From [Clostridium] clostridioforme AGR2157 (GTDB lineage: Bacteria; Bacillota; Clostridia; Lachnospirales; Lachnospiraceae): DNA of 60,662 nt. The DNA lies in assembly GCF_000424325.1 (NCBI RefSeq), contig NZ_AUJR01000035.1, forward strand, positions 1 through 60,662. Direction: 5' to 3'. The notes below the pieces were generated by a model. The model did no database searches. It was not told where the DNA came from and worked only from the letters and a program-made list of their open reading frames with translations. Within the stretch, counting starts at the first letter, position 1; every line of letters begins with the position of its first letter. The translations under genes were made by a program, and so were the position numbers. Below are positions 3,980 through 58,238 of this stretch, piece after piece.

Positions 3980-4350
3980 CCATGAAACCCAATACTGAAC
4001 TGAACACCATGATGTTTTTTGACGATGCCCTAGAGAGTGAGCGCACCTGTCTGCTCACCGAGCTGGCCGATGCCGTCAGCGAGACCCGCACGGCGGCGGA
4101 TCAGGCGGCGGAGCTGAACGAGGATGGCGAGGCGGGTCTGCTGCGCCTGACGGAAATCTGGTGCGCCATGAACGGTGTTCCCGCCATCGTCATCTTCGAG
4201 GGCAGCCAGTCTGAGCTGCTGGCCAATGTGGTGGCGCAGATCTACGCCCATCTGCTTCAGCACCCCTTCCATGACCCTGTGGGGCTGGCCGTCTGTGTGG
4301 AGCTGCGCTACATGATGGACGCCCTCATGCTGGGTGAATGGGTTGAATAA
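3976..4350 (+). CDS. Conserved ICE protein of unknown function
   Basis: 124 residues, acidic, mostly helical and without obvious membrane segments or signal peptide. It begins at ATG 3976, which overlaps the virB4 stop, with GGAGG at 3967-3971; ATG 3982 is an equally possible start with better spacing. It ends 17 bases past the start of the hydrolase gene. The steady position between virB4 and the CHAP hydrolase in related elements suggests a small cytoplasmic partner of the transfer apparatus, but nothing in the sequence gives a biochemical role. Confidence 0.65.
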   Translation: MTMKPNTELNTMMFFDDALESERTCLLTELADAVSETRTAADQAAELNEDGEAGLLRLTEIWCAMNGVPAIVIFEGSQSELLANVVAQIYAHLLQHPFHDPVGLAVCVELRYMMDALMLGEWVE

Positions 4351-14606: not shown

Positions 14607-14683
14607 AAACCACACCAAGACCCAGCGGGGCGGCCTGATGTGCCGCCCCATTTCTATTTAACATGAAGGGAGGACAGAAAACC

Positions 14684-27394: not shown

Positions 27395-27506
27395 GTGGAT
27401 CACGCCCTTTCGCTTTGTTCTCTGCATAAAAGAATACTGTCAAATTCACTATAAAATATAGTATTAGATTTTATAGTATTTGTCAAGGCAAATCGCTTTG
27501 CCTCTC

Positions 27507-27535
27507 TTGACATATACTATAAATTATAGTAGTAT
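27507..27535 (+). promoter_or_regulatory. Promoter of the MATE gene with PadR-type operator in the spacer
   Basis: -35 TTGACA (27507-27512), 17-bp spacer, -10 TAGTAT (27530-27535). The 15-bp odd-centred palindrome ACTATAAATTATAGT (27516-27530) fills the spacer. Similar AT-rich half-sites recur at about 27450-27480 and 27560. A bound PadR protein would block polymerase directly. Confidence 0.75.
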
Positions 27536-27608
27536 GATTTATACGGTGGTGTGCTATAATTTATACTACTGTAAATTACACTCGCAAGGAGCGAAAGGAG
27601 TATTAACA

Positions 27609-28985
27609 ATGAGTGAACGTAACAGCAAACTTGAGCTTTTGGGAAGTGCGCCCATACCAAAAGCTCTGATGGCGCTCGGCGTACCGATTATGATTGGGAT
27701 GTTAATCAACGCCCTATATAATCTGGTGGATGCCTATTTTGTGGGCGGACTGGGCAGAAGTCAAATGGGAGCTATTTCCATCGTTTTTCCGTTGGGGCAA
27801 GTCGTGGTTGGTTTGGGCCTTATGTTTGGCAACGGAGCCGCATCCTATCTGTCAAGACTTCTGGGACGTGGCGATAAGGATACTGCCAACAAAGTGGCAA
27901 GTACAGCCCTGTATAGCAGCCTTCTGATTGGTGCTATTATCATCCTTTTTTCTACGATCTTCCTCAAACCAATTTTGACCATGTTAGGCGCGACAGAAAC
28001 TATCATGCCGTATGCCCTGACGTACTCAAGAATTTATATACTGTCCTGTGTTTTCAACGTGTTTAACGTAACCATGAACAACATTGTGAGCAGCGAAGGT
28101 GCAGCAAAGACAACTATGTGTGCGTTACTGCTGGGAGCTGTCTTGAATATCGGATTAGACCCTCTTTTTATTTACACTTTTAACATGGGGGTTGCCGGTG
28201 CAGCAATCGCCACCGCGATTTCGCAGATGGTATCTACACTTGTTTATCTTACATACGTTCTGCGGAAAAGAAGCGCATTTTCTTTCAGCGTAAAAGCATT
28301 TTCTCCAACTGGGCAAATGATGGTGGAAATCTTGAAAATCGGTATCCCTACTTTGGTGTTCCAGTTGCTTACAAGTCTTTCGATTACACTGATTAACCGT
28401 GCAGCCAGCGATTATGGTGATTCCGTCATTGCAGGCATGGGGGCGGTTACACGAATTACTTCTATGGGAACACTGGTTGTCTTTGGCTTTCTGAAAGGAT
28501 TCCAGCCTATTGCCGGATTCAGCTATGGGGCAAAGAAGTTTGACCGTCTGCGCGAAGCAATCAAAACCTCGATCATTTGGTCTACAAGTTTCTGCTTGGT
28601 TGTGGGCTTGGCAATGGCCATTTTCTCCACACAGATTATCTCTCAATTTACTGATGGAGATACCCAAATGATTTTAGCTGGTCAAAAATCACTGTTTGCA
28701 AATGGGATCACATTCATTCTTTTTGGTTTCTACACGGTATATTCCTCTCTATTCCTTGCATTGGGAAAAGGTGCAGCAGGCTTCTTTTTGGGAGCGTGCC
28801 GACAAGGCATCTGTTTTGTTCCTGTCATTCTGTTGCTGCCTATGGTATGGGACATGAATGGTATTTTGTATGCTCAACCTATCGCTGATGTGCTTTCCGT
28901 AGTGATTACTGTATTTATGGCGGTACATCTTCACAAAGAACTATCTATTGCTGAAAAAAAGGCGACGGCTAACTCCGAAAAGTGA
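27609..28985 (+). CDS. MATE family multidrug efflux transporter (1)
   Basis: 458 residues with about twelve hydrophobic helices and MATE-type internal repeats (ALGVPIMIGMLINALYNLVD near the start, and LKIGIPTLVFQLLTSLSITL mid-protein). The protein would export cationic or aromatic compounds using a sodium or proton gradient. ATG 27609 follows GAAAGGAG; the open frame back to 27480 crosses the promoter. It is divergent from PadR(1) and upstream of PadR(2). Confidence 0.92.
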   Translation: MSERNSKLELLGSAPIPKALMALGVPIMIGMLINALYNLVDAYFVGGLGRSQMGAISIVFPLGQVVVGLGLMFGNGAASYLSRLLGRGDKDTANKVASTALYSSLLIGAIIILFSTIFLKPILTMLGATETIMPYALTYSRIYILSCVFNVFNVTMNNIVSSEGAAKTTMCALLLGAVLNIGLDPLFIYTFNMGVAGAAIATAISQMVSTLVYLTYVLRKRSAFSFSVKAFSPTGQMMVEILKIGIPTLVFQLLTSLSITLINRAASDYGDSVIAGMGAVTRITSMGTLVVFGFLKGFQPIAGFSYGAKKFDRLREAIKTSIIWSTSFCLVVGLAMAIFSTQIISQFTDGDTQMILAGQKSLFANGITFILFGFYTVYSSLFLALGKGAAGFFLGACRQGICFVPVILLLPMVWDMNGILYAQPIADVLSVVITVFMAVHLHKELSIAEKKATANSEK

Positions 28986-28996
28986 GGGAAAGCCTC

Positions 28997-29035
28997 TTGA
29001 CTTTTACTATCGTCAATAGTACTATTGATAATAGT
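28997..29035 (+). promoter_or_regulatory. Promoter and double operator of the second padR gene
   Basis: -35 TTGACT (28997-29002), 17-bp spacer, -10 TACTAT (29020-29025). Two 15-bp palindrome-like units lie side by side, ACTATCGTCAATAGT (29006-29020) and ACTATTGATAATAGT (29021-29035). They resemble the site in the MATE promoter, so autoregulation by PadR is likely. Confidence 0.75.
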
Positions 29036-29054
29036 GAAAGTTGGAGGTGTCATT

Positions 29055-29579
29055 ATGTCGTCAATCGATTTGGTCATACTTGGTATTGTATTGGAGAAAC
29101 CGCAAAGCGCCTATGACATTCAAAAGGATGTGGAGTACCACCATTTTTCGCGCTGGACAAAAATAAGCGTACCTTCTATTTATCGTAAGGTACTCCAGTT
29201 GAGCGAGAAGGGGTATCTGCAAAGCGACATTGTTAAAGGTGATAAGTTTGCGGATAAGGCCATCTATTCTATTACCGATCAGGGCAGAGCGTATTTCAAG
29301 GAGCTGATGGCCTCTTGCGCCGCTGGCCCCGTACCCTTGTTATTCGATTTCAATGTGGTAATTACCAATTTGAACAAGATGGACAAAGCTGAAGCGTTGG
29401 AGCTGGTTTCGGCTTTGCGCCGGAGCATACAGTCCTCGGCTGAATCGAATGAGGGCTATGCGCAGGAATTTGCAGACATTCCTTTGGTTGGGAGAACGAT
29501 TTTTGAGCAACAGCAGCTTCTCTATCGCGCCCTACTGGAATGGCTGGATCACTTTGAAGGGCAGTTCTTAAAAGAATGA
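29055..29579 (+). CDS. PadR family transcriptional regulator (2)
   Basis: 174 residues, clearly homologous to the PadR at 26873: IDLVILGIVLEKPQSAYDIQ and WTKISVPSIYRKVLQLSEKG align along the winged helix. ATG 29055 follows GGAGGTG. It overlaps the YjdF gene by ATGA, so regulator and effector are translationally coupled. Its promoter carries two operator-like palindromes. Confidence 0.9.
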   Translation: MSSIDLVILGIVLEKPQSAYDIQKDVEYHHFSRWTKISVPSIYRKVLQLSEKGYLQSDIVKGDKFADKAIYSITDQGRAYFKELMASCAAGPVPLLFDFNVVITNLNKMDKAEALELVSALRRSIQSSAESNEGYAQEFADIPLVGRTIFEQQQLLYRALLEWLDHFEGQFLKE

Positions 29580-31407: not shown

Positions 31408-31794
31408 TTACTCTTGCAACAGTTTATTATCCCCATAAGGATTTACATAATCCGGCGGGCAGAGATTTGTTTCACTCCACAACATCATCTGATTTAAGAT
31501 TGGAACAAAGCTCTGCCCCATTTCTGTCAAAGAATACTCTACTTTTGGCGGTATCTCTTTATAAATTTCACGGTGTAAAAAGCCGTCCTGTTCCAATTCA
31601 CGAAGCTGCTTTGTCAGCGAAGATTGAGTAATACCATCCAAACGACGCATTAACTCGTTGAATCTTTGGACTTTATAAAAAGCAATGTACCACAAAATCA
31701 ATATTTTCCATTTTCCACCTAACACAGCTTGAAGGCTACTCATTGGTACACATCTGGTCATCATATCAGGATTCATAAATTTGTTTTCTGCCAT
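31408..31794 (-). CDS. HxlR family transcriptional regulator (1)
   Basis: 128 residues with an HxlR/MarR-type winged helix (SLQAVLGGKWKILILWYIAF, RRLDGITQSSLTKQLRELEQ). HxlR proteins often sense electrophiles, aldehydes or redox change through cysteines; here Cys14 or so (MTRCVPMSS) is the only N-terminal one. ATG 31794 follows GGAGGTG (minus strand). It is divergent from the metK-radical SAM operon and probably controls it. A hairpin with AATAAACTGTT/AACAGTTTATT arms (31385-31428) overlaps the end of the gene. Confidence 0.88.
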   Translation of the reverse strand: MAENKFMNPDMMTRCVPMSSLQAVLGGKWKILILWYIAFYKVQRFNELMRRLDGITQSSLTKQLRELEQDGFLHREIYKEIPPKVEYSLTEMGQSFVPILNQMMLWSETNLCPPDYVNPYGDNKLLQE

Positions 31795-31866
31795 ATCGCT
31801 ATACACCTCCACTAACAGTATATCATATACAGCGCAGAATTTCAATGTACACAACATTTTCACTAT

Positions 31867-31886
31867 TAGTATGAAAAATAATACTA
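31867..31886. promoter_or_regulatory. Candidate HxlR operator in the HxlR/metK divergent region
   Basis: Inverted repeat TAGTAT (31867-31872) and ATACTA (31881-31886), 8-bp spacer, in an AT-rich divergent promoter region. Binding by the adjacent HxlR is inferred. Confidence 0.5.
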
Positions 31887-31969
31887 CTACTAAAAAAGTT
31901 GCGTACTTGAAAAAATTGTTGCATAACAGTACCATTGAAGCAAGCAAAAAGAAAAGGAGTTGATTGCTT

Positions 31970-33157
31970 ATGGAAAACAGACTTTTTACTTCGGAATCGG
32001 TTACAGAGGGACATCCTGATAAAGTATGCGACCAAGTTTCAGATGCTGTTCTTGATGCGATTTTAGCGATAGAACCCGAAGCACATGTGGCTTGTGAAGT
32101 ATCTGCTACAACTGGAGTGATTGTCCTGATGGGCGAGATTTCTGCGAATGCTCTGAATCATGTTGATGTGGAGCAGGTTGTCCGGGATACCGTCAGAAAT
32201 ATTGGTTATTTCGGTAATGATTTCGGTTTTAATGCCGATGGAATCGCAGTAATTTCTGCGCTACATGCTCAATCGCCAGATATTGCACAGGGCGTAAATA
32301 ATGCGTTGGAAACACGCTCTGGCAAAGATGCTGATATTGGCGCAGGTGATCAGGGTATGGTCTTCGGTTATGCGACGGATGAAACAGAAACATTCATGCC
32401 AACCCCTATTTATCTGGCGCATCGGCTTACCCGAAAACTGGCAGAAGTTCGCAAAACTGGCACAATCCCTTATTTGGGGCCGGATGGAAAGGCTCAAGTT
32501 TCCGTCGAATATGCAGGACGTAAAGCTGTGAGGGTAGATAGCGTGGTTTTGTCTACGCAGCATTTACCAAATGTGTCCCACGAAATGATTGAGAAAGATA
32601 TTATTAACAAAGTAATCGTTCCTGTCATTCCGAAAGAATTATTAGACAAGAATACTCGTTACCTTATCAACCCTACCGGGCGTTTTGTTGTAGGTGGCCC
32701 ACAGGGAGATACTGGACTGACTGGACGAAAAATAATTGTAGATACTTATGGAGGCTTTGCCCGCCACGGCGGTGGTGCTTTTTCAGGAAAAGACCCGACC
32801 AAAGTTGACCGCAGTGCTGCTTATGCGGCTCGCTATGTTGCAAAAAATCTGGTGGCCGCCGGTATCGCACACCAATGTGAGATTCAGATTGCCTATGCGA
32901 TTGGGGTAGCAAAGCCTGTCTCTGTTTTCGTTGATACCTTTGGTACTGGCATTATACCAGACGAACAAATATTAAAGTTGGTTATGGAGCATTTTGATCT
33001 TCGTCCATCTGCCATTATGAAAGAACTCAATCTTCGCAGACCGATTTACAAACCAACTGCTGCCTATGGTCACTTCGGCAGAGACGATTTATCTCTCCCG
33101 TGGGAACAGATAAATAAAGCCGACATTTTACGGCAGGAATTACTTAAAAACGCATGA
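31970..33157 (+). CDS. metK: S-adenosylmethionine synthetase
   Basis: 395 residues, full length. The signature motifs are intact: [13 protein letters not shown] (ATP/methionine loop) at about 14-26, [15 protein letters not shown] at about 117-131, and [16 protein letters not shown] at about 265-280. The enzyme makes SAM from ATP and methionine. A metK gene on a mobile element, heading an operon with two radical SAM enzymes, suggests it supplies cofactor locally. It starts at ATG 31970 after AAAAGGAG, and the AT-rich codon use differs from the ICE backbone, which points to separate acquisition. It is not likely the host's only copy. Confidence 0.95.
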
Positions 33158-33178
33158 TTTTGAAAGGAGAAATGATTT

Positions 33179-34063
33179 ATGCACTACGATGGAACGATTT
33201 GGCGGCCGCCATATGAAGCCTATTCTTTATTGATTCAGGTCACAGCAGGATGTACGCACCATTCCTGCAAATTCTGTACCTTGTACGAGGACTTGCCTTT
33301 CAAATTCCGAATGTCCCCACTGTCGGAAGTGAAAGAAGATCTCGCAGAAGCAAGCCATTATGTAAGGAACACTCCCCGAATTTTCTTTACTGGCGCAAAC
33401 CCGTTTGTTCTTAGCACAGACAAGCTGAAAACACTGGCAAAGATGGTAAAGGAATATTATCCGAATTACAAGTCGATTGGGTGCTTTGGACGCATAACTG
33501 ATGTGAAAAATAAAACGGTGGAAGAATTGAAAGAGCTCCGTGCTCTTGGCTATGATGGAATTACCTTTGGTGTGGAAACTGGAGATGATGAAGCCCTTGC
33601 TTTTATGAATAAAGGGTATCGGCGGGAAGATATTATTGAACAATGTAAGAAAATGGAAGAATCGGGTATTAGCTACAATTTCTTCTATCTGACCGGAATT
33701 TCTGGTGCGGGCCGTGGAGAAATTGGAGCTAAAGCAACCGCAGAGGTCTTTAACCAGTGTCATCCCAAAATCATTGACGCTTCTATGATGACAATTTACA
33801 AGACTTCTGAATTGTATAAAGAAATTCAGAAAGGGAATTGGAAAGAAGAAAGCGAGATTGAAAAACTTGCCGAGCTGAAAACCCTGATTGAAAATCTTAC
33901 TGTAGAAGCCAGATTTGCTACTGATGGCGCCTCCAATCTAATTCAGGTTCGCGGCAACCTCCCTGAAGATCAGAAAAAGCTGGTCAAATATCTGGAACGA
34001 TTGATTGCAACTGCTGATGAAGCAGCTTTGCGGGAATACAGAGTCAACTTGAAGCACTTATAA
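33179..34063 (+). CDS. Radical SAM protein (1), CX4CX2C type
   Basis: 294 residues. The 4Fe-4S binding motif is GCTHHSCKFC near residues 24-33, with CX4CX2C spacing instead of the usual CX3CX2C. Downstream come FFTGANPFVLS, a beta-strand motif, and GYDGITFGVETGDDE, which fits the SAM-binding ETGDD-type loop. No B12, TRAM or SPASM domain is seen. It is 22 bases after metK with GAAAGGAG upstream. A paralogue follows two genes later. The substrate is unknown; the enzyme would generate a 5'-deoxyadenosyl radical from SAM. Confidence 0.88.
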   Translation: MHYDGTIWRPPYEAYSLLIQVTAGCTHHSCKFCTLYEDLPFKFRMSPLSEVKEDLAEASHYVRNTPRIFFTGANPFVLSTDKLKTLAKMVKEYYPNYKSIGCFGRITDVKNKTVEELKELRALGYDGITFGVETGDDEALAFMNKGYRREDIIEQCKKMEESGISYNFFYLTGISGAGRGEIGAKATAEVFNQCHPKIIDASMMTIYKTSELYKEIQKGNWKEESEIEKLAELKTLIENLTVEARFATDGASNLIQVRGNLPEDQKKLVKYLERLIATADEAALREYRVNLKHL

Positions 34064-34074
34064 GGGACATAAGT

Positions 34075-34905
34075 ATGATACAGGATATTTTCCCTAATAT
34101 TTATGACAGAACATATTCTAATGAAATCCCGTCTCCTGATGATATGATAATTGCTTTTCGTAACGGCATGGTATTACTTGTTAATACCATGCCCGGAAAG
34201 CTCCGTATTCCGCAATTTTCGGATTTTAAGACTGGCTGTAAAACAAAATACCTATTCCGTATCAATACCAGAAAACTCTTTTTGGCAGAGGGATATAAGG
34301 AATCAGATTTAGACTGTAAAACAATAGACTGGTATAGTTTAGAAATGGTCTTTACACAATTTCCTGAATGGACACAATTCGCAGTAGTGACGGCCAGACA
34401 TCTATCAGATTGGTATTACAGAAACCGTTATTGCGGCTGTTGTGGTTCCCTTATGCGGGCTCATTATTCCGAAAGAGCTATGGTATGTTCTGAATGTGGA
34501 GATATCGTCTATCCAGTTATTTCTCCGGTTATCATTGTAGGCGTAACTGACCATGACAAACTGCTTCTTACCAAATATGCCAATAATGAATTTAAGATGC
34601 ACGGATTGATTGCCGGGTATGTAGAAATCGGAGAAACTTTAGAGGCCGCTGTGATACGTGAAGTACGCGAAGAAGTAGGACTTGCAATCAAAAATCTCCG
34701 CTATTTTGGAAGTCAGCCTTGGGGTTTAACACATATACTGATTGCTGGATTCTTTGCTGAAGTAGATGGAAACAGCCAGATTCATTTGGATGAAAAGGAA
34801 TTATCTAAGGGCATTTGGGTTTCAAGGGATGAACTGCCACATGAATTAAATGATATAAGTATCACATACGAGATGATAGAAGCATTTCGTAATAATCAAA
34901 TATAG
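34075..34905 (+). CDS. NudC-like Nudix hydrolase with zinc ribbon
   Basis: 276 residues. A four-cysteine zinc ribbon (CGCCGSLM near 121, CSECG near 140) precedes a full Nudix box, GYVEIGETLEAAVIREVREE, near 181-200 (GX5EX7REUXEEXGU pattern). SQPWGLTHILI follows, a variant of the SQPWPFP motif that marks NADH pyrophosphatases. The enzyme probably hydrolyses NADH-like dinucleotides or NAD-capped RNA to monophosphates. The altered SQPW motif may mean a different substrate. It lies between the two radical SAM genes with gaps of 11 and 13 bases, a strong sign of one pathway. Confidence 0.85.
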   Translation: MIQDIFPNIYDRTYSNEIPSPDDMIIAFRNGMVLLVNTMPGKLRIPQFSDFKTGCKTKYLFRINTRKLFLAEGYKESDLDCKTIDWYSLEMVFTQFPEWTQFAVVTARHLSDWYYRNRYCGCCGSLMRAHYSERAMVCSECGDIVYPVISPVIIVGVTDHDKLLLTKYANNEFKMHGLIAGYVEIGETLEAAVIREVREEVGLAIKNLRYFGSQPWGLTHILIAGFFAEVDGNSQIHLDEKELSKGIWVSRDELPHELNDISITYEMIEAFRNNQI

Positions 34906-34918
34906 AAAGGGGATGCTT

Positions 34919-35797
34919 ATGCACTTTACAGGTCGTACATGGCGCCCACCATATGAAGCGAGCTCATTTATTGTTCAGGTCACCTCCGGCTGTACCCATA
35001 ATAAATGTCATTTTTGCAGTCTTTACAAAAACGAATGTTTTCGGATGTCGCCTATTCAAGAATTTGAAGAAGATTTGGCTGAACTTCAAAAATATCAGCC
35101 AACAGCCCGACGCATTTTCCTGACAGGAGCTAACCCGTTTGTAATGAGCTATGAGAATTTAGTGAAGAGGGCACTTCTGGTGCATGACTATCTTGTGGAA
35201 TGCCAAAACATAGCGATGTTCTCAAGCATCCGGGATATAAAAAGCAAAAAGGTGTGGCAGTTAAGACGATTGCGGGCGTTGGGTATTAACGGACTTAGCA
35301 TCGGTACAGAATCCGGCGATGATGCGACCTTGCTACTTGCAAATAAAGGTTACACAGCAAAAGAATTAATTGAACAATGCCGAAAACTGGACGATGCAAG
35401 AATGGAATATTACTTTGTCTACATGACAGGACTTGCCGGGAAAGGGAATAGCTATCGAAATGCCGTCAACAGTGCAAAAGTATTCAGTAAAGTAAATCCC
35501 CGATTCATTTCCGTTGATTCACTGACCCTATTTCCTGATACTGAACTATACCAAATGGCACAGCGAGGCGAGTTTATTCCCGCTGGAGAAAAAGAACGAA
35601 TTGAAGAATTACAGGTTTTTATCAGTAATCTTCAAATTCGTACACACCTGTTTGCAAATTCCAAATCTAATTATTATCCAGTGACCGCATACTTGCCCAA
35701 TGAGCGCGAAAAAGTGATTGGACAATTACAATATATCCTGGATACTGTGGATGAATCAGAGATGGTTGAATATAGAAACAACCTAAAATCATTATAA
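34919..35797 (+). CDS. Radical SAM protein (2), CX4CX2C type
   Basis: 292 residues, paralogous to the protein at 33179: shared WRPPYEA near the N-terminus, CTHNKCHFC cluster motif, LTGANPFVMS, and GINGLSIGTESGDDA. ATG 34919 is used because AAAGGGG at 34906-34912 gives proper spacing; ATG 34913 does not. The two copies have diverged widely, mainly in the C-terminal half, so they may act as a heterodimer or on successive steps. Last gene of the metK operon. Confidence 0.87.
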   Translation: MHFTGRTWRPPYEASSFIVQVTSGCTHNKCHFCSLYKNECFRMSPIQEFEEDLAELQKYQPTARRIFLTGANPFVMSYENLVKRALLVHDYLVECQNIAMFSSIRDIKSKKVWQLRRLRALGINGLSIGTESGDDATLLLANKGYTAKELIEQCRKLDDARMEYYFVYMTGLAGKGNSYRNAVNSAKVFSKVNPRFISVDSLTLFPDTELYQMAQRGEFIPAGEKERIEELQVFISNLQIRTHLFANSKSNYYPVTAYLPNEREKVIGQLQYILDTVDESEMVEYRNNLKSL

Positions 35798-35827: not shown

Positions 35828-36184
35828 TTACTTTTGGTTTTGGCTACAAAGGAGCTGGACATCCAGACCGTCCAGATAGCGGTTTCCCCATTGGCACATT
35901 GCATCCAGAATGGGAACAATGCTCTGTCCAAATTGGGTAAGGGAATATACCGTCTTGGGCGGCTTTTCTGGAATCACTTCTCGATGAATCATGCCGCTGT
36001 TTTCCAGGTCGTGAAGCTGCTGCGAAAGCATCTTCGGCGTGGCGTTTGGAATCAACCGCTGCAACTCCATATAGTGTAATGGATGGTCAATCAGATGCCA
36101 GAGGATTAACGGCTTATACTTGCCGCCGATCAAAGACAAGGTTGCCTCCACCGGGCAGTTGAATTGATTTTTTTCACATTTCAT
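35828..36184 (-). CDS. HxlR family transcriptional regulator (2)
   Basis: 118 residues, winged helix (LSLIGGKYKPLILWHLIDHP, then MLSQQLHDLENSGMI). Cys3 and Cys10 near the N-terminus (KCEKNQFNCPVE) resemble the redox-sensing cysteine of HypR/YodB-type regulators. It is convergent with the metK operon and divergent from the nitroreductase gene, which it probably controls in response to electrophile or quinone-like stress. Start ATG 36184 has GGAG upstream on the minus strand. Confidence 0.88.
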   Translation of the reverse strand: MKCEKNQFNCPVEATLSLIGGKYKPLILWHLIDHPLHYMELQRLIPNATPKMLSQQLHDLENSGMIHREVIPEKPPKTVYSLTQFGQSIVPILDAMCQWGNRYLDGLDVQLLCSQNQK

Positions 36185-36277: not shown

Positions 36278-36334
36278 TAGGTCAATGGTTGATTTGATAT
36301 GTTCAAAATAAAAATAATGAAAGGACTTTATACT

Positions 36335-36853
36335 ATGGATTTTGTTACGATTGCAAAGCAGCGTATGTCGGTACGCGATTACAAGGAAACGAAGGTGGAG
36401 CCTGAGAAGCTGGAGAAGATTCTGGAGGCTGCTCATGTGGCCCCGACCGCCGCCAACCTTCAGCCGGTTCGTCTGATCGCTGTTCAGAGCGAGGAAGGTC
36501 TTGCGAAGATCAGCAAAGCGGCCAACATCTATGGTGCGCCCCTGGCCATCATTGTTTGCGCCGATCACGACAAGGCGTGGGTACGGCCTTTCGATCAGAA
36601 GCAGACCGGCGACATTGACGCCTCCATCCTGACCGACCACATGATGCTCCAGGCCACGGAGCTGGGCCTTGGAACGGTGTGGGTGTGCTACTTCAAACCC
36701 GATGTTCTGCGTAAGGAATTTGACCTTCCGGCCAACCTGGAGCCGGTCAACATTCTGGTTGTCGGCTATTCCGATGAAGGAACCGGCGACCCCAATCGTT
36801 TCGATAAGCAGCGCATCCCGATGAGCCAGTTGGTTTCCTACGAAACTCTGTAA
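36335..36853 (+). CDS. Nitroreductase family FMN-dependent oxidoreductase
   Basis: 172 residues. The N-terminal RMSVRDYKETKVEPEKLEKI and HVAPTAANLQPVRLI segments are the FMN-binding signature of the family, and GLGTVWVCYFKPD is the usual C-terminal core. It is short, as in the single-domain NfnB/Frp-like members. It could reduce nitroaromatics, quinones or flavins with NAD(P)H. Located next to HxlR(2), which suggests induction by electrophiles. GC-rich codons unlike the metK operon, so the two were likely acquired separately. Confidence 0.9.
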   Translation: MDFVTIAKQRMSVRDYKETKVEPEKLEKILEAAHVAPTAANLQPVRLIAVQSEEGLAKISKAANIYGAPLAIIVCADHDKAWVRPFDQKQTGDIDASILTDHMMLQATELGLGTVWVCYFKPDVLRKEFDLPANLEPVNILVVGYSDEGTGDPNRFDKQRIPMSQLVSYETL

Positions 36854-37716: not shown

Positions 37717-39597
37717 TTAACCCTGATCCCGGCTGCCCGCTGGCATATCCGGCAGCTTAACCCGCATAGCGCGGATCGCATTGAGAATAGCAATAATAGA
37801 AACGCCTACATCAGCGAACACAGCCGCCCACATATTCGCATAACCCAGCGCACCCAAAATCAGAACCAGGAACTTAACGCCCAGGGCAAAGACGATGTTC
37901 TGATTTGCAATGCGGATTGTTTTGCGGGCAATCTTCATAACTGCGGCAATTTTGGACGGTTCATCCGTCATAAGAACAACGTCGGCAGCTTCAATGGCCG
38001 CATCGGAACCCAAGTCGCCCATAGCAATACCTACATCGGCCCTCGCCAGTACGGGAGCGTCATTGATACCATCCCCGACAAAGGCCAGCGTACCTTTTTC
38101 GCTTTTCTGATTCAGCAGGCTTTCCACACGGTCAACCTTATCAGCCGGAAGTAGCTCTGTATAAGCCTGATCCAGCCCCAGCCGCCCCGCGACTTTCTTA
38201 CCAACGGCATCTGCATCACCGGTCAACATGACCGTTTTGCGGATACCGGCAGATTTCAGAAGCTTGATTGCCGCCGGAGCGTCGCTCTTGATCTCGTCCT
38301 CAATGACGATACATCCAGCGTATTTCCCGTCACAGGCCAGATAGACCACGGTGCCGACAGCGGAGGATGGCGTGTACTTAATATGTTCTTTCTCCATCAG
38401 CTTGGTGTTTCCGGCCAGAATCGTTTTCCCGTCAATCACGGCCTGTACGCCGTGACCGGCAATTTCCTGGACATCGGAAACCCGGCTGTTGTCGATTTTC
38501 TCTCCATAGGCGTTCTTGATAGAAAGAGAAATCGGGTGGTTGGAGTAATCCTCTGCGTATGCGGCCAGCTCCAAAAGCTGCGCTTCCTCCATGCCGACAG
38601 GGTGGATCTCGCTGACCGCAAAGGAGCCTTTTGTCAGTGTGCCGGTCTTATCAAAGACCACGACCTCGGTATTTGCCAGCGCCTCCAGATAGTTGCTGCC
38701 CTTTACCAGAACGCCGATCTTGGATGCGCCGCCGATGCCTCCGAAGAAACTAAGCGGAATGGAAATGACCAGCGCACAGGGGCAGGAAATCACCAGGAAG
38801 GTCAAGGCCCGGTAAATCCAGGTGCTGAATGGCTGCTGGGTAATCAATGGCGGCAGGATCGCCAGCGCCAGAGCAGCGAATACCACTACCGGGGTGTAGT
38901 ACCTGGCAAAGCGCGTGATGAAATTCTCAATACGGCCCTTCTTATCGCTTGCGTTTTCCACAAGGTCAAGGATTTTGGCTACGGTGGATTCTCCAAATTC
39001 CTTTGTGGTCTGGATGTTCAGGATGCCGGTCTGGTTGATACAGCCACTGATGACCTCCATTCCCGGCTCCACCTCGCGGGACATGGATTCTCCGGTCAGG
39101 GCCGAAGTGTCCAGGGTGGAAAAGCCTTTGAGAATCGTACCGTCCAGCGGGATGCGCTCTCCAGGTTTCACAACAATGGTTTCTCCGATCTGAACCTCGT
39201 CCGGGTCAACCTGAACCAGCTTTCCGTCCCTTTCGATGTTGGCATAGTCCGGGCGAATGTCCATCAGGCTTGCGATAGATTTTCTGGACTTGGACACCGC
39301 ATAGGACTGGAACCATTCGCCCACCTGATAAAACAGCATAACGGCAACGCCTTCGGAATGTTCTCCTAAAATCAGTGCGCCGATGGTGGCAATCGTCATA
39401 AGGAAATTTTCGTCAAACACCTGTCCATGCAGGATGTTTGTGATCGCTTTCCACACAATATCCCATCCGACAACTGCATAGCAGACGAGAAAGACGATCA
39501 TCTCCGCCAATTCGGGAAGATGGAGCAAACTGCCAGCAAGAAACAGCACTGCCGCCACGATAATGCGGGCGAGTAAGTGCTTTTGTTTTCGTGTCAT
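37717..39597 (-). CDS. cadA: Cd/Zn/Pb-exporting P1B-type ATPase
   Basis: 626 residues. The metal-binding CPC motif ([11 protein letters not shown]) in the sixth helix, the phosphorylation motif DKTGTLTKG, TGES in the actuator domain, the HP locus (SNHPISLS) and [10 protein letters not shown] are all intact, as in ZntA/CadA exporters of divalent soft metals. It lacks an N-terminal HMA domain; a separate HMA protein is encoded just upstream. ATG 39597 follows AAAGGAG on the minus strand. Regulation by the nearby ArsR proteins is likely. Confidence 0.93.
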   Translation of the reverse strand: MTRKQKHLLARIIVAAVLFLAGSLLHLPELAEMIVFLVCYAVVGWDIVWKAITNILHGQVFDENFLMTIATIGALILGEHSEGVAVMLFYQVGEWFQSYAVSKSRKSIASLMDIRPDYANIERDGKLVQVDPDEVQIGETIVVKPGERIPLDGTILKGFSTLDTSALTGESMSREVEPGMEVISGCINQTGILNIQTTKEFGESTVAKILDLVENASDKKGRIENFITRFARYYTPVVVFAALALAILPPLITQQPFSTWIYRALTFLVISCPCALVISIPLSFFGGIGGASKIGVLVKGSNYLEALANTEVVVFDKTGTLTKGSFAVSEIHPVGMEEAQLLELAAYAEDYSNHPISLSIKNAYGEKIDNSRVSDVQEIAGHGVQAVIDGKTILAGNTKLMEKEHIKYTPSSAVGTVVYLACDGKYAGCIVIEDEIKSDAPAAIKLLKSAGIRKTVMLTGDADAVGKKVAGRLGLDQAYTELLPADKVDRVESLLNQKSEKGTLAFVGDGINDAPVLARADVGIAMGDLGSDAAIEAADVVLMTDEPSKIAAVMKIARKTIRIANQNIVFALGVKFLVLILGALGYANMWAAVFADVGVSIIAILNAIRAMRVKLPDMPAGSRDQG

Positions 39598-40646: not shown

Positions 40647-40813
40647 AGAAAACAGCTAAATGGAGTTGAAAGCCTGCCCATCAGAGCGGACAAAAAGCCA
40701 TGCTGGCCGCTATAATGAAAATCGTTCAAAGACCTTGTGCGTAGACTTTATGATCGGGGCTGTGGCATCTTTCCCCCAAGGTGTCAAACGCCCCTTTTCA
40801 TAACAGTATTTAG

Positions 40814-40833
40814 TTCCCTACGGGGGAGGGGTA
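40814..40833 (+). promoter_or_regulatory. Candidate CsoR operator upstream of copA
   Basis: The G/C-rich sequence TTCCCTACGGGGGAGGGGTA resembles the C- and G-tract palindromes bound by CsoR. The csoR gene lies downstream in the same operon. No clear -35/-10 pair was assigned. Confidence 0.4.
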
Positions 40834-40862
40834 CTCGCACAAATCTTCATAAGAAAGAAGGG

Positions 40863-43442
40863 ATGATTTTGCAAAAGGAGCAATTTGACATTACGGGTAT
40901 GACTTGCTCGGCCTGCTCTACCAGAGTGGAAAAGAACGTGGCAAAGCTACCTGGCATCAAAGAAGTGTCCGTCAACCTGTTAAAAAACAGCATGGTTGCT
41001 TCTTATGATGAATCCGTTTTGGATACGGCGGGAATCGTCCAGGCCGTTGAAAAGGCCGGTTATGGTGCTATTCCCAAAGCCTCCACACAAAACAAGAGCC
41101 GCACGACTACACCGGCAGCAAAACCGGAGGTCAGTACGGCGCAGGCAGAATACAAGCAGATGAAACAGCGGCTGCTGCTTTCTGCCCTGTTCACAATTCC
41201 GCTGTTCTATATATCTATGGGTCACATGATGGGATGGCCGCTCCCCGGCTTCCTGCTGGGGATGGAAAATGCAATCAGCTTTGCATTTACCCAATTCCTG
41301 CTGCTGATCCCGGTAGTGTTTATCAACTTCAAATACTACCGGATGGGCTTCAAGACCCTGTTCCACGGTTCGCCTAACATGGATTCGCTGATTGCGATAG
41401 GTTCCAGCGCCGCAATCGTTTATGGCGTTTACGCCATTTACAAAATCGGCATTGGATTCGGTCATAGTGATATGGCTACGGTTCACAGCTTTATGATGGA
41501 TTTGTATTTTGAATCCGCAGGCATGATCCTGACCCTCATTACCCTGGGCAAAACCTTGGAGGCCCGCGCAAAGGGTAAGACTTCGGATGCAATCACAAAG
41601 CTGATGAATCTGGCTCCCAAAACGGCTACCGTGGAGCGGGACGGGAAAGAGCTTCAAGTGCCTGTGGAAGAAGTGCAGTTGGGCGAAACCCTGATTGTCA
41701 AGGCCGGTGAGTCTGTGGCGGTGGATGGTATTGTCATAGAGGGCTTTTCTTCCGTTGATGAATCTGCTCTGACCGGCGAGAGCATTCCGGTGGAGAAGCA
41801 TATCGGGGACAAAGTGATCGGCGCAACCACAAGTAAGTCCGGCTATTTCAAGATGCAGGCTACCAAGGTGGGTGACGATACCACGCTGGCACAGATCGTC
41901 CGGCTGGTGGATGAAGCGACCAGTTCCAAGGCCCCTATTGCGAAACTGGCCGATAAGGTCAGCGGCATGTTTGTGCCGGTAGTCATCAGCATTGCGCTGA
42001 TCGCGGTTGTTGTTTGGCTGCTGTTGGGATACGGATTTGAATTTGCCCTGTCAATCGGTATTTCCGTCCTGGTTATTTCCTGCCCCTGTGCGCTGGGACT
42101 TGCAACGCCTACGGCCATTATGGTCGGGACCGGAAAGGGTGCAAATAACGGTATCCTGATTAAGTCGGCGGAGGCCCTGGAAACGGCTCATAGTATTGAT
42201 ACGGTTGTTCTGGATAAGACCGGAACAATCACCCAGGGAACGCCCATCGTGACAAGTATGCTCTGCAAGGAGGGCATCCGGCAAAAAGAGCTGCTGCGGA
42301 TCGCCGCCTCGCTGGAGAAGCTGTCCGAGCATCCTTTGGCGGACGCGATTGTGGCGGAGGCTGAAAAAGCAGAGCTTTCTTTCCTCCCGGTGGATGATTT
42401 CAAGCAGATTCCCGGCCAGGGCCTTGTCGGTCAGATTAAAAATGAAACCTGTCTTGCCGGAAACCGCCGACTGATGGCGGCAAATGGTATCAACGGCGGC
42501 TCACTCCTTCCATTAGGTGAGGAAATGGCTGTTGACGGGAAAACACCGCTGTTCTTTGCCCGTGGCGGGCAGCTCATTGGTGTCATTGCCGTGGCAGATG
42601 TAGTCAAGCCTACCAGCAAGCAGGCCATAGCGGAATTGACCGGCATGGGCATTGAGGTGATCATGCTGACCGGCGATAATGCGAAAACCGCAGAAGCAAT
42701 TCGCCGTCAGGTCGGCGTGGATCGTGTCGTGGCAGAGGTATTTCCCCAGGACAAGGAAAAGGAGATCCGCCGTTTACAGAACGCCGGTAAGAAAGTGGCG
42801 ATGGTCGGTGACGGTATCAACGATGCTCCGGCTCTTGCCAGAGCTGATGTTGGCATTGCCATCGGAGCCGGTACAGATGTGGCGATTGAATCAGCGGATA
42901 TTGTTTTGATGAAAAGCGATCTGCTGGATGTGTCTACGGCGATCCAGCTTAGTAAGGCGGTTATCCGCAACATCAAGCAAAATCTGTTTTGGGCTTTTAT
43001 CTACAACATCATCGGGATTCCGGTGGCGGCAGGCGTGTTCTATCTGCCCTTTGCATTGAAGCTGAACCCCATGATCGGCGCTTTTGCCATGAGCTTCAGC
43101 TCGGTATTTGTGGTGTCCAATGCCCTGCGGCTGCGGTGGTTCAAGGCAAAACACATCTCTCACATAGAGCCGAATATGGTTCAGATGGGTCAATCGACAG
43201 TTATCAAAAAAGAACGAAAAGGAGCAATTCAAATGGAAAAAGTATTGAACATCGAAGGTATGGTTTGCGGAAACTGTGTAAAGCACGTTGATAAGGCGCT
43301 GCGGGGCATCCAGGGGGTCAAGGATGTAGCGGTTCACCTGGAGAGCAAGTCGGCCCAGGTGCAGCTTAACCAAGATGTGCCGGATGATGTGCTGAAAACT
43401 GCCATCGAGGATGCTGGCTATCAGCTCGTCAGTATCCAGTGA
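40863..43442 (+). CDS. copA: Cu(I)-exporting P1B-type ATPase with N- and C-terminal HMA domains
   Basis: 859 residues. An N-terminal HMA domain has GMTCSACS near residue 13, a CPC motif lies in [11 protein letters not shown], and [22 protein letters not shown] and [11 protein letters not shown] are intact. This set is typical of CopA. Unusually, the frame continues through [10 protein letters not shown] into a second HMA domain ([15 protein letters not shown]) at the C-terminus, which in relatives is a separate CopZ gene. ATG 40863 is the best annotated start but is close to its purine-rich site; TTG 40869 is possible. The csoR repressor follows 10 bases later. Confidence 0.9.
43233..43442 (+). 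CDS. copZ: CopZ-like copper chaperone, nested in-frame at the 3' end of copA
   Basis: 69 residues from an internal ATG at 43233, in frame with copA. AAAAGGAG (43217-43224) is placed eight bases before it. The product is a complete HMA domain with the copper site GMVCGNC. In bacteria CopZ carries Cu(I) to CopA and to the repressor. Here it may be made both as a fused domain of CopA and as a free protein. The internal ribosome site is seen; its use is inferred. Confidence 0.65.
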
Positions 43443-43798: not shown

Positions 43799-43878
43799 TA
43801 CAAAGAAGCCCGGATTTTATATACTTTATATGGTTGGTTAGACATGGCTAATAAATATAGACCAGGAGGAATAGAGTG

Positions 43879-45252
43879 ATGAAACAGGCACTTGACACAA
43901 GAACAAAACTTTTAACAAAAAGTCCCTGGCCCCTTATGATTGAACTTAGCATCCCTGCGGTTCTCGGTATGGTGGTTGTTGGGCTTTATAACATGATGGA
44001 TTCCATCTTTGTCGGCCAAATGGTCGGTGATGTGCAGATGGGAGCCATATCGGTATCTTATCCATTGACGCTGATAAATGCCGGATCAGCGGCCATGCTG
44101 GGCGTGGGTTCTGCATCGGTGCTGTCCCGCGCTATCGGCAAGAAGGACGAAAACACGATTAAGAAGATCATGGGCAATCTGGTTGCGATGGTTCTTCTGC
44201 TGTCCGTTATTTACACCGTTGTGGGTATGGTGTTCACCCGCCAGCTCCTGTCCCTGACCGGAGCCAGCGACAACATTCTGAATTACGCTGAGAAATATCT
44301 GCGGATCGTGTTCGCCGGTTCTCTGTTCGTAAACTTCTTCCAGAGCGCCAACATGGTAATCCGTGGAGAAGGTCAGCTCAAAAAGGCAATGACGATTATT
44401 GCCAGCGGCGCTATTTTGAACATCATCCTTGACCCCATTTTTATCAGCATCCTGAATCCTTATGGTATGGGAATTGAAGCCGCTGCTTATGCAACGATTT
44501 TCTCCCAATTTGTCCAGGCCGCGATTACTCTGTGGTATTTCAAGAAGAAAAGCCCTCATGTGAAGATCGGACGCGTCCGCATTGACGGAGAGCTGCTTCC
44601 CCAGGTTCTTTCTGTTGGCGTATCTGCCCTGTTAATGCAGATTTTGACCCTGGTACAGCAGACGGTGATCTATCGTGTGGCCGCGGGTTATGGCGGTGAA
44701 ACTTCACAGCTCCTGTTGAGCGCGGCTCTCCGCTTCTGGAATTTCTCTTTTGTCCCGCTGTGGGGTATCAGTCAGGGCTTCCAGCCTGCCGCCGGTACAA
44801 ACTACGGTGCAAAGGACTATGACCGGGTAAAGACCCTGACCAGAGTTTTCATTACCGCTGCAACGCTGCTATCTCTGGTATTCTATATCCCCGCCGAGCT
44901 GTTCCCGGAAAAGATTTTGTCCATGTTCCTGACAACGCCGGGTATCGCCGCATCGGGTGCTACAAACTTCCGTATCATGTTCAGCACCTATGTCCTGCAA
45001 GGCAGCTTTATGATTGCCGTAACCCTGTTCCAGTCTTTGGGTAAGGCGAAAAAGGCAACCTGGCTGGTGCTGTTCCGTCAGATCATCCTGTTTATCCCGC
45101 TCTGTGTGGTTCTGCCGATGATCGGCGGCATGGGTATCCGTGGTGTCTGGCTGGCGATTGCTCTGACCGATGCAATCCTAGTTGTCATTACCGTTTCCAT
45201 GATGCTTTTTGAGTTCCGTAAGCTGCCAGCGACTTCTTCCGTGAACCGGTAA
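43879..45252 (+). CDS. MATE family efflux transporter (2)
   Basis: 457 residues with about twelve hydrophobic helices. MATE repeats are recognisable (LMIELSIPAVLGMVVVGLYN near the start, VLSVGVSALLMQILTLVQQT mid-protein). AGGAGG precedes GTG 43876 and ATG 43879, either of which could start. It is only distantly related to MATE(1). Followed by feoA after 13 bases, so pump and iron uptake probably share an mRNA; the pump may export a siderophore-like or metal-linked compound, which is inference. Confidence 0.9.
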   Translation: MKQALDTRTKLLTKSPWPLMIELSIPAVLGMVVVGLYNMMDSIFVGQMVGDVQMGAISVSYPLTLINAGSAAMLGVGSASVLSRAIGKKDENTIKKIMGNLVAMVLLLSVIYTVVGMVFTRQLLSLTGASDNILNYAEKYLRIVFAGSLFVNFFQSANMVIRGEGQLKKAMTIIASGAILNIILDPIFISILNPYGMGIEAAAYATIFSQFVQAAITLWYFKKKSPHVKIGRVRIDGELLPQVLSVGVSALLMQILTLVQQTVIYRVAAGYGGETSQLLLSAALRFWNFSFVPLWGISQGFQPAAGTNYGAKDYDRVKTLTRVFITAATLLSLVFYIPAELFPEKILSMFLTTPGIAASGATNFRIMFSTYVLQGSFMIAVTLFQSLGKAKKATWLVLFRQIILFIPLCVVLPMIGGMGIRGVWLAIALTDAILVVITVSMMLFEFRKLPATSSVNR

Positions 45253-45488: not shown

Positions 45489-47528
45489 ATGAGAGAAAAT
45501 TTGACTATCGGCTTCATCGGAAATCCGAACTGCGGAAAGACAACGCTTTTCAACGCTTACACCGGCGCAAACCTGAAAGTGGCAAACTGGCCCGGTGTAA
45601 CCGTTGAGAAAGTGGAGGGTGCTATCAAAGACCACGACATGAACATTCGTCTGGTTGATCTTCCCGGTACTTATAGCCTGACTTCTTACACGATGGAGGA
45701 GCAGGTTTCCCGGCAGTTTATACTTAGTGATGAAGTCGATGTAATTATTGATGTTGCAGATGCCTCCGCTCTGGAGCGTAATCTGTATTTGACCTTGCAA
45801 CTCTTGGAGTTGGGCAAGCCGGTTGTGCTGGCTCTGAACATGATGGACATTGTAGAAAAACGCGGTATGGAGATCGACACGCACAGGCTCCCGGAAATGC
45901 TGGGGATTCCAGTTATCCCGGTTTCAGCCAGAAAGCGGACGGGCCTGGATGTGCTGCTACATGCGGCGGCGCACCATAAGGACTGCAAAGACCCGGACTG
46001 CCTGATCCATCATCACAATTATACTTCAAAGCACCGGCACGACCACCATTCCGAGTATGCGATGGTTTACAGCGATGCTATTGAGGACAAAATCGACCTT
46101 ATCATGGTGGAGCTGAAAAAGAAATACCCTGGTCTGACAAACTATCGCTGGTATGCAATCAAGCTGTTGGAACAGGATAAGGAAATTACAGCCAATTACC
46201 CAGTGAGTCTGCCCGATGTGCTGGATCGCAATTATGAATCGGACATCATCAACCAGAAATATGATTTTATTCAGGAGATCATTCGGGAAGTGCTGGTGAA
46301 TAAAGACCGGCAGGATGCCCTGACGGAAAAAGTGGATCGCGTACTGACGCATAAAGTGTGGAGCATCCCTATTTTCCTTGTTATTATGGCCGCGGTATTT
46401 TTCTTGACTTTTACGATTGGGGACTGGCTGAAAGGGTACTTTGAGATGGGGATTGAAAGCCTGTCTGCCTTAATCGATGACGGGTTGGCCGCTGCCGGTG
46501 TCAATGAGATGCTATGCTCCCTGCTGGTAGATGGCATTATCGCTGGTGTAGGTGGTATCCTGACCTTTTTGCCAAACATTTTTATCCTGTTCCTTGCTTT
46601 GGCATTTCTTGAGGACAGCGGCTATATGGCTCGTGTTGCCTATGTTATGGAGGGAATTATGAGCAAGCTGGGATTATCCGGCAGGGCTTTTATTCCTATG
46701 ATCTTAGGGTTTGGCTGTACGGTTCCGGCAATTATGGCATCACGGACGCTGGAAAACCGGCGTGACCGATTTAAGGTCATGCTGGTTACTCCCTTTATGA
46801 GTTGTAGCGCCCGTCTGCCAATTTACATACTGTTTGCGGAAATGTTTTTTGCCGAACAAGCTATGCTGGTAGCGTACTCCATGTACCTGATTGGTTTGAT
46901 GGTTGCGATCCTTGTAGCTGCGGTAATTCATCTGATTGACCGGAAAACTTCGGAAAACTATTTGCTGATCGAGCTGCCGGAATACAAAGCGCCAAGTGGC
47001 CGAACCGTTGCCATTTATGTATGGGAAAAAGTAAAGGATTATCTTACCAAGGCCGGAACCACAATTTTTATGGCTTCTATCCTCATGTGGGTCATTCTGA
47101 ACTTTGGTCCTCATGGTTACACCACGGAAATGACAGAGAGTTTCGGAGCCATTCTGGGGCACTGGCTGGTGCCGTTCTTTGCGCCGGTGGGATTAGGCTT
47201 CTGGCAGATCGCCGTTGCTTTGATTGCCGGTATCTCTGCAAAAGAGGTTGTAGTATCCAGTTGCGCCGTCTTGTTTGGAGTACCGAATATCAACTCTGAG
47301 GCAGGTATGAATACGCTGGTAGGTATTTTGGGGACTGCTGGTTTTGGACAGCTCAATGCCTTCTGCCTGATGATTTTCTGCCTGCTCTACGTTCCCTGCG
47401 CGGCGGCATTGGCCACGATCCGTAAGGAGTCTGGCAGTACAAAGTGGATGCTGTTCTCGGCCCTGTTCCAGTTGGTTGTGGCCTGGGGTGTTACCTTTGT
47501 TGTTTATCGTGTTGGACTTTTATTGTGA
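45489..47528 (+). CDS. feoB: FeoB ferrous iron permease
   Basis: 679 residues. The N-terminal GTPase has G1 GNPNCGKTTL, G3 DLPGTYSL and G4 NMMD; the transmembrane part has the two Gate motifs (ILGFGCTVPAIMASRTLENR and an equivalent later). A His-rich stretch HHHNYTSKHRHDHH near residues 178-191, between the G domain and the membrane part, is an addition that may bind metal. Imports Fe(II) across the membrane. Complete, with a strong feoA-feoB linkage. Confidence 0.95.
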   Translation: MRENLTIGFIGNPNCGKTTLFNAYTGANLKVANWPGVTVEKVEGAIKDHDMNIRLVDLPGTYSLTSYTMEEQVSRQFILSDEVDVIIDVADASALERNLYLTLQLLELGKPVVLALNMMDIVEKRGMEIDTHRLPEMLGIPVIPVSARKRTGLDVLLHAAAHHKDCKDPDCLIHHHNYTSKHRHDHHSEYAMVYSDAIEDKIDLIMVELKKKYPGLTNYRWYAIKLLEQDKEITANYPVSLPDVLDRNYESDIINQKYDFIQEIIREVLVNKDRQDALTEKVDRVLTHKVWSIPIFLVIMAAVFFLTFTIGDWLKGYFEMGIESLSALIDDGLAAAGVNEMLCSLLVDGIIAGVGGILTFLPNIFILFLALAFLEDSGYMARVAYVMEGIMSKLGLSGRAFIPMILGFGCTVPAIMASRTLENRRDRFKVMLVTPFMSCSARLPIYILFAEMFFAEQAMLVAYSMYLIGLMVAILVAAVIHLIDRKTSENYLLIELPEYKAPSGRTVAIYVWEKVKDYLTKAGTTIFMASILMWVILNFGPHGYTTEMTESFGAILGHWLVPFFAPVGLGFWQIAVALIAGISAKEVVVSSCAVLFGVPNINSEAGMNTLVGILGTAGFGQLNAFCLMIFCLLYVPCAAALATIRKESGSTKWMLFSALFQLVVAWGVTFVVYRVGLLL

Positions 47529-58233: not shown

Positions 58234-58238
58234 CGCCT

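Follow-up and report, generated by a model that had tools for sequence, protein, structure and literature searches.

An operon in the 60,662-nucleotide contig NZ_AUJR01000035.1 of [Clostridium] clostridioforme AGR2157, which is called the window here, raises the question of why metK, the gene for a predicted methionine adenosyltransferase, should lie together with two radical S-adenosylmethionine (SAM) genes (rSAM1 and rSAM2) and a NudC-like Nudix gene under an HxlR-type regulator, and whether these genes form a unit. Judged from a comparison with 70 related loci, the conserved core is an HxlR gene divergent from rSAM1, and the other genes are modular. We read the whole as an HxlR-controlled, horizontally moving, radical-SAM-centered cassette that would handle reactive electrophiles under anaerobic conditions, a reading to which we give slightly less than an even chance.

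Coordinates, strands and gene order were re-derived from the window (the host assembly comprises 4.9 Mb in 133 contigs). The HxlR (MarR/DUF24) regulator, a protein of 128 residues with a cysteine at position 15, is encoded on the minus strand at 31408–31794 (ATG at 31794) and has the winged-helix HxlR domain (PF01638, 104.8 bits; cut-off 20.8). Between it and metK lies an operator-like inverted repeat, the palindrome TAGTAT-N8-ATACTA (31867–31886). On the plus strand, metK (31970–33157; TIGR01034, 567.1 bits; cut-off 309.4), which appears to be a dedicated paralog, is followed after 21 bases by rSAM1 (33179–34063; 294 residues; PF04055, 65.6 bits; cut-off 29.5), after a further 11 bases by the Nudix gene (34075–34905; PF00293, 64.8 bits) and after another 13 by rSAM2 (34919–35797, ATG at 34919; PF04055, 47.2 bits; cut-off 29.5). 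The genes, order, gaps, divergent regulator and palindrome described in the initial annotation were thus borne out by coordinates and family profiles, as was its remark on AT-rich composition: the five cassette genes have 38–45% G+C, compared to 57% in positions 1–25000 of the window.

Relatives of rSAM1 were collected by scanning genome contigs for a pattern (33 loci), from phylum, family and class samples of genomes, and from viral contigs (one locus, L123), with wider flanks taken for many loci. The 70 loci compared with the window contain an rSAM1 of at least 47% identity and more than 120 residues; short loci were swapped for longer ones from the same place. They are related and not independent, some being near-identical (L011/L012, L152/L153), and one species may occur twice. 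A divergent HxlR gene was present beside rSAM1 in 65 of these loci, or 66 of 71 with the window; those without it were L038 (a gene fragment), L071 and L075 (contig ends), L159 and L175. (L041, a 126-residue fragment without HxlR, was part of the HxlR recount and is outside the 70.) Among more distant rSAM genes, most of them with about 1.5 kb of flank, only 3 of 52, at two loci, had a divergent HxlR. Thus, the pairing marks the rSAM1 subfamily. The four operon genes had been supposed to form a conserved unit, which failed the co-occurrence check, since the exact metK–rSAM1–Nudix–rSAM2 set was found in the window alone among the 71 loci. By gene content, the module is more widely spread and more modular than the four-gene operon, which is one rare version of it. 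The family sample (397 genomes) had 24 genomes with a match to rSAM1 at E < 1e-90 and the class sample (391 genomes) had 5, counting the genome of the window in both, and the taxa with rSAM1 loci include Lachnospiraceae, Oscillospiraceae, Eggerthellaceae and Phascolarctobacterium.

The region between HxlR and the operon is conserved as well. The pattern TAGTA-N10-TACTA occurred in 17 of 61 HxlR intergenic regions, compared to an average of 0.02 in 50 shuffles, and AAAAA-N1..6-GTACTT in 47 of 61, compared to none in 50 shuffles; because the intergenic regions share descent, this contrast is a measure of conservation and not a probability. A second conserved box in the window, AAAAAAGTTGCGTACTTG (31892–31909), is located on the metK side of the palindrome and is perhaps an operator or a −35 region. 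This box or a close variant precedes rSAM1 in most loci, metK in the window and L009, pyrD in L016, L039 and L144, and DUF1934 in L143 and L145. As far as these positions tell, the control region has been kept while the first gene of the operon varies.

What might the regulator sense? The column of Cys15 contained cysteine in all 66 HxlR proteins divergent from rSAM1, including that of the window. According to passages of PMC6943732, the related regulators YodB, CatR and HypR sense quinones, diamide and hypochlorous acid (HOCl) through an N-terminal cysteine and control reductases, among them the nitroreductase YodC. A formaldehyde sensor, for which Cys11-x-Lys13 is described as required in HxlR of Bacillus subtilis (PMC7835342, seen in part), was rejected: the residue two places after the cysteine was Pro in 33, Thr in 23, Ser in 6 and Ala in 4 of the 66 proteins, and Lys in none. 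The electrophile-response reading follows from the kinship with YodB, CatR and HypR, which sense electrophiles and oxidants, together with this absence of Cys-x-Lys.

The two radical SAM proteins are 42% identical to each other, and the three cysteines of their CX4CX2C motif were invariant in all 59 aligned sequences, in agreement with the paralogous CX4CX2C pair noted at first. The motif is not the canonical CX3CX2C; variants of it exist within the radical SAM superfamily. Both proteins pass the curated cut-off for Radical_SAM, which Pfam gives as the sole domain, and no characterized radical SAM equivalog scored over its NCBIfam cut-off (best 42 and 38.2 bits, compared to 577.6 and 360). The 19 rSAM2 rows formed one clade in the rSAM tree, supported at 100 by the Shimodaira–Hasegawa-like approximate likelihood ratio test (SH-aLRT). 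Sequence searches of solved structures with rSAM1 returned mostly distant radical SAM matches (Elp3, OxsB, HemN and one uncharacterized protein). The match to Elp3 chains, at an E value of about 1e-13 with a profile, would be consistent with an RNA or nucleotide modification that gives antibiotic resistance in the manner of Cfr or MiaB. However, Radical_SAM is the only domain, the motif is CX4CX2C instead of CX3CX2C, and no RNA-modifying equivalog scored over cut-off; we therefore regard such a function as highly improbable. The nucleotide or RNA modification proposed in the initial annotation likewise gained no direct support, and the neighbors point instead to flavin oxidoreductases and cofactor supply (see below). 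Maturation of a ribosomally synthesized and post-translationally modified peptide was also considered and is unlikely, because the gaps of 11–21 bases leave no space for a precursor gene (no search for small open reading frames was made).

That the cassette is imported cargo, as had been claimed, was supported by Eisenbergiella porci, which had the best rSAM1 match (98%). Its DNA matched the window at 95.8% between 31407, where HxlR ends, and 34087, covering HxlR–metK–rSAM1 and followed by a Nudix remnant; within the 16.9 kb fetched, nothing else matched the window DNA at E 1e-10. The confinement of the match to the cassette indicates that the cassette moves apart from its surroundings and is partly decayed in E. 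porci. In the window, the cassette is surrounded by genes of a conjugative element: a TraG-type ATPase, a topoisomerase, a 2545-residue protein with an SNF2-related domain, a relaxase and two large serine recombinases. A search of plasmids revealed nothing close to the operon at the DNA level; distant rSAM proteins, and only those, occurred in 11 plasmid records and 2 phage records.

The genes that accompany the core are variable. A downstream rSAM2 was present in 21 of the 70 other loci (22 of 71 with the window), while metK, Nudix and pyrD occurred in 5 of 71 loci each, in differing combinations. Besides the window, metK was found in L009, L071, L143 and L145 (4 of 70), in all five cases directly upstream of rSAM1, and Nudix in L010, L071, L144 and L145 (4 of 70); pyrD, absent from the window, was found in L016, L039, L143, L144 and L145 (5 of 70). 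The fullest version is that of L145, in which HxlR is divergent from DUF1934–metK–rSAM1–Nudix–pyrK–pyrD. Other combinations are DUF1934–metK–rSAM1–pyrK–pyrD in L143, pyrD–rSAM1–Nudix in L144 (with Nudix cut by the contig end), pyrD–rSAM1 in L016 and L039, metK–rSAM1–Nudix in L071 and rSAM1–Nudix–rSAM2 in L010.

In phylogenetic trees, four operon MetKs formed a clade (96/92) apart from housekeeping metK, and the fifth, from L071, joined elsewhere on a long branch. Together with the fixed position of metK, this clade upheld the earlier suggestion that SAM supply is tied to the radical SAM gene. Four operon Nudix copies, without the partial copy of L144, grouped together (99/99) to the exclusion of the 18 highest-scoring other homologs in the family, and the operon PyrDs fell into two clades. 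A single origin was not rejected by approximately unbiased (AU) tests for operon MetK (p = 0.328) or PyrD (p = 0.121). These genes could be loose cargo, in which case the functional link would extend only to HxlR and rSAM1 (with rSAM2), and metK, Nudix, pyrD and the nearby nitroreductase gene would be chance pick-ups in mobile elements. Their rarity, their confinement to a single group of the rSAM1 tree and the mere Nudix remnant in E. porci are consistent with this. However, three housekeeping families recur in varied order and with small gaps within one operon, as lineages apart from the housekeeping copies. On balance, we consider loose cargo unlikely.

MetK of the window has all three MetK Pfam domains and retains the GAGDQG and GGGAFSGKD motifs, as predicted for a methionine adenosyltransferase. 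Active-site motifs were kept in the four operon MetKs and five PyrDs inspected, as were the cysteines of two PyrKs. The operon MetKs contain 3, 3, 3, 4 and 5 cysteines, compared to 5–8 in 23 of 24 other MetKs and none in the remaining one (the analysis left out four PyrD and four MetK outliers). At position 92, all but one of the 26 non-operon copies (25) have Cys, whereas four of the five operon copies have Ile or Val (Ile in the window) and that of L071 has Cys. Position 276 is Pro in all five operon copies, compared to Cys in 22 and Pro in 4 of the 26 others. Position 92 aligns with Cys90 of the solved MetK chain 7ock, which we take to be E. coli MetK; Cys90 is presumably the N-ethylmaleimide-reactive residue of that enzyme (a literature search gave no paper on this). 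The loss of this cysteine, at one position and in few related sequences, hints at a SAM synthetase made for thiol stress.

The same observation would fit a different arrangement, in which thiol stress, through HxlR, induces resistant stand-ins for MetK, PyrD and NudC, and rSAM1 is protective too and not a consumer of their products. In addition to the cysteine-poor MetKs and the substitutions at positions 92 and 276, the mammalian enzyme MAT I/III is consistent with this, since passages of PMC11942099 describe a loss of its activity with N-ethylmaleimide, nitric oxide donors and oxidants. However, Pro at position 276 is also present in 7ock as well as in the four other MetKs and may be ancestral; PyrD retains its catalytic cysteine, and neither PyrD nor Nudix of the operons is cysteine-poor. 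A set of hardened stand-ins is, in our view, improbable. The host genome contains further metK genes. A third one (L180, G000:C41:4000-15000), located among genes for microcompartment shell proteins, phosphate propanoyltransferase and aldehyde dehydrogenase, is 51–53% identical and falls outside the operon MetK clade; a fourth (L181, G000:C36:10500-21500) lies beside a sortase gene and an open frame of 1206 residues.

The Nudix protein had been called NudC-like, and this held at the level of the profile: it passes the NAD(+) diphosphatase profile NF001299 (190.9 bits; cut-off 158), and the Nudix box and four zinc-ribbon cysteines are kept in the alignment, with the Pfam zinc-ribbon model just below cut-off (22.4 compared to 24.8). 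The NADH signature of NudC, given as Q[PQ]W[PA]xP in part of PMC6856373, is only partly kept. The window has QPWGLT, SQPWGLTHI replacing SQPWPFPxS, and other homologs in the alignment also deviate at the last Pro. Four PyrD copies of the relatives were scanned and scored 428–443 bits with the class 1B dihydroorotate dehydrogenase profile NF005574 (cut-off 269), and the catalytic cysteine motif NISCPN is present in all five operon PyrDs. A PyrK-like gene adjoins PyrD in two of the five loci, with an Fe-S domain above the Pfam cut-off and a PyrK equivalog score below.

Flavin enzymes recur in the neighborhood. In the window, a gap of 30 bases separates rSAM2 from a nitroreductase module with its own regulator, HxlR2 (35828–36184, minus strand; PF01638, 100.9 bits), adjoined by the nitroreductase-family flavoenzyme gene NTR (36299–36853, plus strand; PF00881, 99.6 bits). 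NTR was found at most 3 kb from rSAM1 in the window and in 7 of the 70 other loci (8 of 71). Near it, an energy-coupling factor (ECF) S component over the Pfam riboflavin-transporter cut-off is encoded in L144, and L151 has an ECF S homolog whose score, below cut-off, is for the folate family; histidine phosphatases were found near NTR in L144, L151, L011 and L012. Also near NTR, L151 encodes at 4267–4962 a possible flavin-sensing regulator, in which a riboflavin kinase domain is joined to a DNA-binding domain of the response-regulator type (Trans_reg_C). In a survey of NTR itself, 37 of 200 family genomes had matches at E < 1e-30, and 20 neighborhoods were fetched. Four of these (L243, L247, L257 and L258) contained a third radical SAM paralog, rSAM3, of about 340 residues, which in L257 lies 9 bases downstream of the nitroreductase gene on the same strand, beside HxlR2; a histidine phosphatase was present in L248 and, partial, in L255. 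rSAM3 was also seen beside HxlR2 and nitroreductase in L011–L013. Sister rSAM genes are accompanied by two NMO-family genes and an HxlR gene (L171), by OYE-family and FMN_red genes (L173) or by a nitroreductase gene (L178), and that of Ilyobacter (L100) lies behind an NAD(P)H-dependent oxidoreductase.

Such neighbors raise the possibility of a flavin-centered module, in which the radical SAM enzymes would modify or repair the flavin or another cofactor of partner flavoenzymes, not a xenobiotic, and the flavin pool would pass through flavin adenine dinucleotide, flavin mononucleotide (FMN) and riboflavin by the action of Nudix, histidine phosphatase, the transporter and riboflavin kinase. The recurrence of NTR (8 of 71), PyrD (5 of 71) and PyrK (two loci), the ECF S components of L144 and L151, the riboflavin kinase of L151, and the OYE, NMO and FMN_red families beside the sister genes all argue for it. 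Nevertheless, metK, pyrD and Nudix are all absent from 62 of the 71 loci, only the ECF S component of L144 passes the Pfam riboflavin model, and profile searches gave no flavin-modifying radical SAM enzyme of such a kind. We regard this explanation, too, as unlikely.

For the inducer, chemistry, substrate and cofactor supply of the electrophile-handling cassette, we infer the following scheme. HxlR would bind the operator between its gene and the operon and, like others of its family, respond through the N-terminal cysteine. rSAM1, with rSAM2 in some loci, would provide the central radical chemistry, most likely removing or rearranging a small electrophile of the nitro, quinone or enone type, or the damage done by it, alongside FMN oxidoreductases such as the nitroreductase next door and the PyrD within the operons of relatives. 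MetK would be the source of SAM, as an isoform without a conserved cysteine, and the nicotinamide, flavin or electron supply may be sustained by Nudix, joined in relatives by pyrK/pyrD and riboflavin genes. Detoxification appears likeliest because of the regulator, the partners and the mobile cargo context.

Several observations weigh against this reading. metK, pyrD and Nudix were found in only 9 of 71 loci, all within one 13-row group (SH-aLRT 84) of an rSAM1 tree built with every other distant row omitted, along with L012 and L153; they may therefore be hitchhikers. PyrD and Nudix of the operons are not depleted in cysteine as MetK is. Some HxlR-family proteins, HypR and HxlR, are activators, according to parts of PMC6943732 and PMC7835342. 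Finally, co-directional neighbors of distant rSAM genes were identified in 15 of 32 cases (12 by Pfam, 3 by record annotation), and about half of these were not flavoenzymes (DegV, two PhoU-like, SDR, isochorismatase, YitT, XdhC family, exonuclease and DUF3795); the flavoenzymes among them were partly picked for scanning owing to earlier matches. Flavoenzyme linkage as a trait of the whole rSAM family was accordingly rejected; given these mixed neighbors, the flavin link holds for part of the family only.

Other cargo lies in the same element. Resistance- and metal-type genes occupy 26873–47528, including a transporter that is MATE-like by eye (27480–28985) with an adjoining PadR regulator (29025–29579), a P-type ATPase of the zinc/cadmium type (37717–39597), a likely copper ATPase, again by eye (40737–43442), a MatE protein (43876–45252) and FeoB (45489–47528). 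The 2545-residue protein among the conjugation genes is a single open frame (14663–22300) with a MutS domain I-like region in addition to the SNF2-related domain. Downstream of the two serine recombinases, at 56215–59987, an OLD-family AAA/TOPRIM protein (672 residues) is followed by a UvrD-like helicase (582 residues), a pair that we take to resemble Gabija-type defense. A known anti-phage defense system was unsupported by a scan of eight proteins with PADLOC profiles: seven had no match, and the Nudix protein matched at 25.6 bits through its Nudix domain only.

Gut anaerobes are exposed to quinones, nitro drugs and electrophiles from plants, and the cassette may represent a means, not described before, by which oxygen-shy bacteria cope with reactive chemicals. 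If so, a radical SAM enzyme as the core HxlR target would add a chemistry to the bacterial stress response and to drug metabolism, offer an initial clue to a large uncharacterized rSAM family, and show a mobile cassette that packs its own SAM supply. The HxlR pairing offers a simple handle, as the inducer of the operon would point to the likely substrate class. A further step would be to see here a new class of anaerobic electrophile response, with a radical SAM enzyme, and not just a flavin reductase, as the main agent of detoxification or repair under HxlR, its own SAM synthetase hardened against electrophiles, flavin or nicotinamide support, and conjugative spread among gut bacteria; this we put forward tentatively, as a rather doubtful proposition. 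The initial annotation knew of no described system with this gene set, and a search of the open-licence literature agreed: no paper was recognized on an HxlR–radical SAM operon, on a conjugative element that combines metK with a radical SAM gene, or on a CX4CX2C radical SAM protein of this sort. As far as these searches reach, an HxlR-controlled stress operon with such a radical SAM core is undescribed.

Partial likenesses exist to several known systems. Small uncharacterized CX4CX2C radical SAM proteins, presumably those labeled “COG1032-like”, have the same size and domain as rSAM1 and rSAM2 at about 28–44% identity. Of 398 genomes from the same phylum, 80 gave a match of E 1e-40 or better, and records of Fusobacterium, Vibrio and Sulfuricurvum gave weaker ones. 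In the distant proteins, however, GANPF and GASN/SxSN of rSAM1/2 are replaced, for example by DGDAL (18 of 52) and NHASN (16 of 52). The NudC NAD(+)/NADH diphosphatase shares the zinc-ribbon cysteines and Nudix box with the Nudix protein of the window, which differs in lacking the full NADH signature and in belonging to its own clade relative to the 18 best other Lachnospiraceae homologs. Glycyl-radical microcompartment (GRM) loci count a SAM synthetase among their ancillary proteins, as stated in part of PMC4207490, and thus provide a precedent for a SAM synthetase that travels with a radical-enzyme locus; the host genome itself has such a metK among shell genes, in L180. The window operon, in contrast, includes neither a shell protein nor a glycyl radical enzyme. 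To our knowledge, the known HxlR-family regulons rest on reductases. The closest counterparts are the HxlR/DUF24 electrophile regulons of B. subtilis (YodB, HypR and CatR, with the targets yodC, azoR1, hypO and catDE), which have the conserved N-terminal cysteine in common with the cassette and include a nitroreductase, YodC, as a target (PMC6943732, in part), just as NTR adjoins HxlR2 here. Unlike in those regulons, the tightest partner of HxlR in the present loci is a radical SAM enzyme, with SAM synthetase, NudC-like and dihydroorotate dehydrogenase genes as optional companions.

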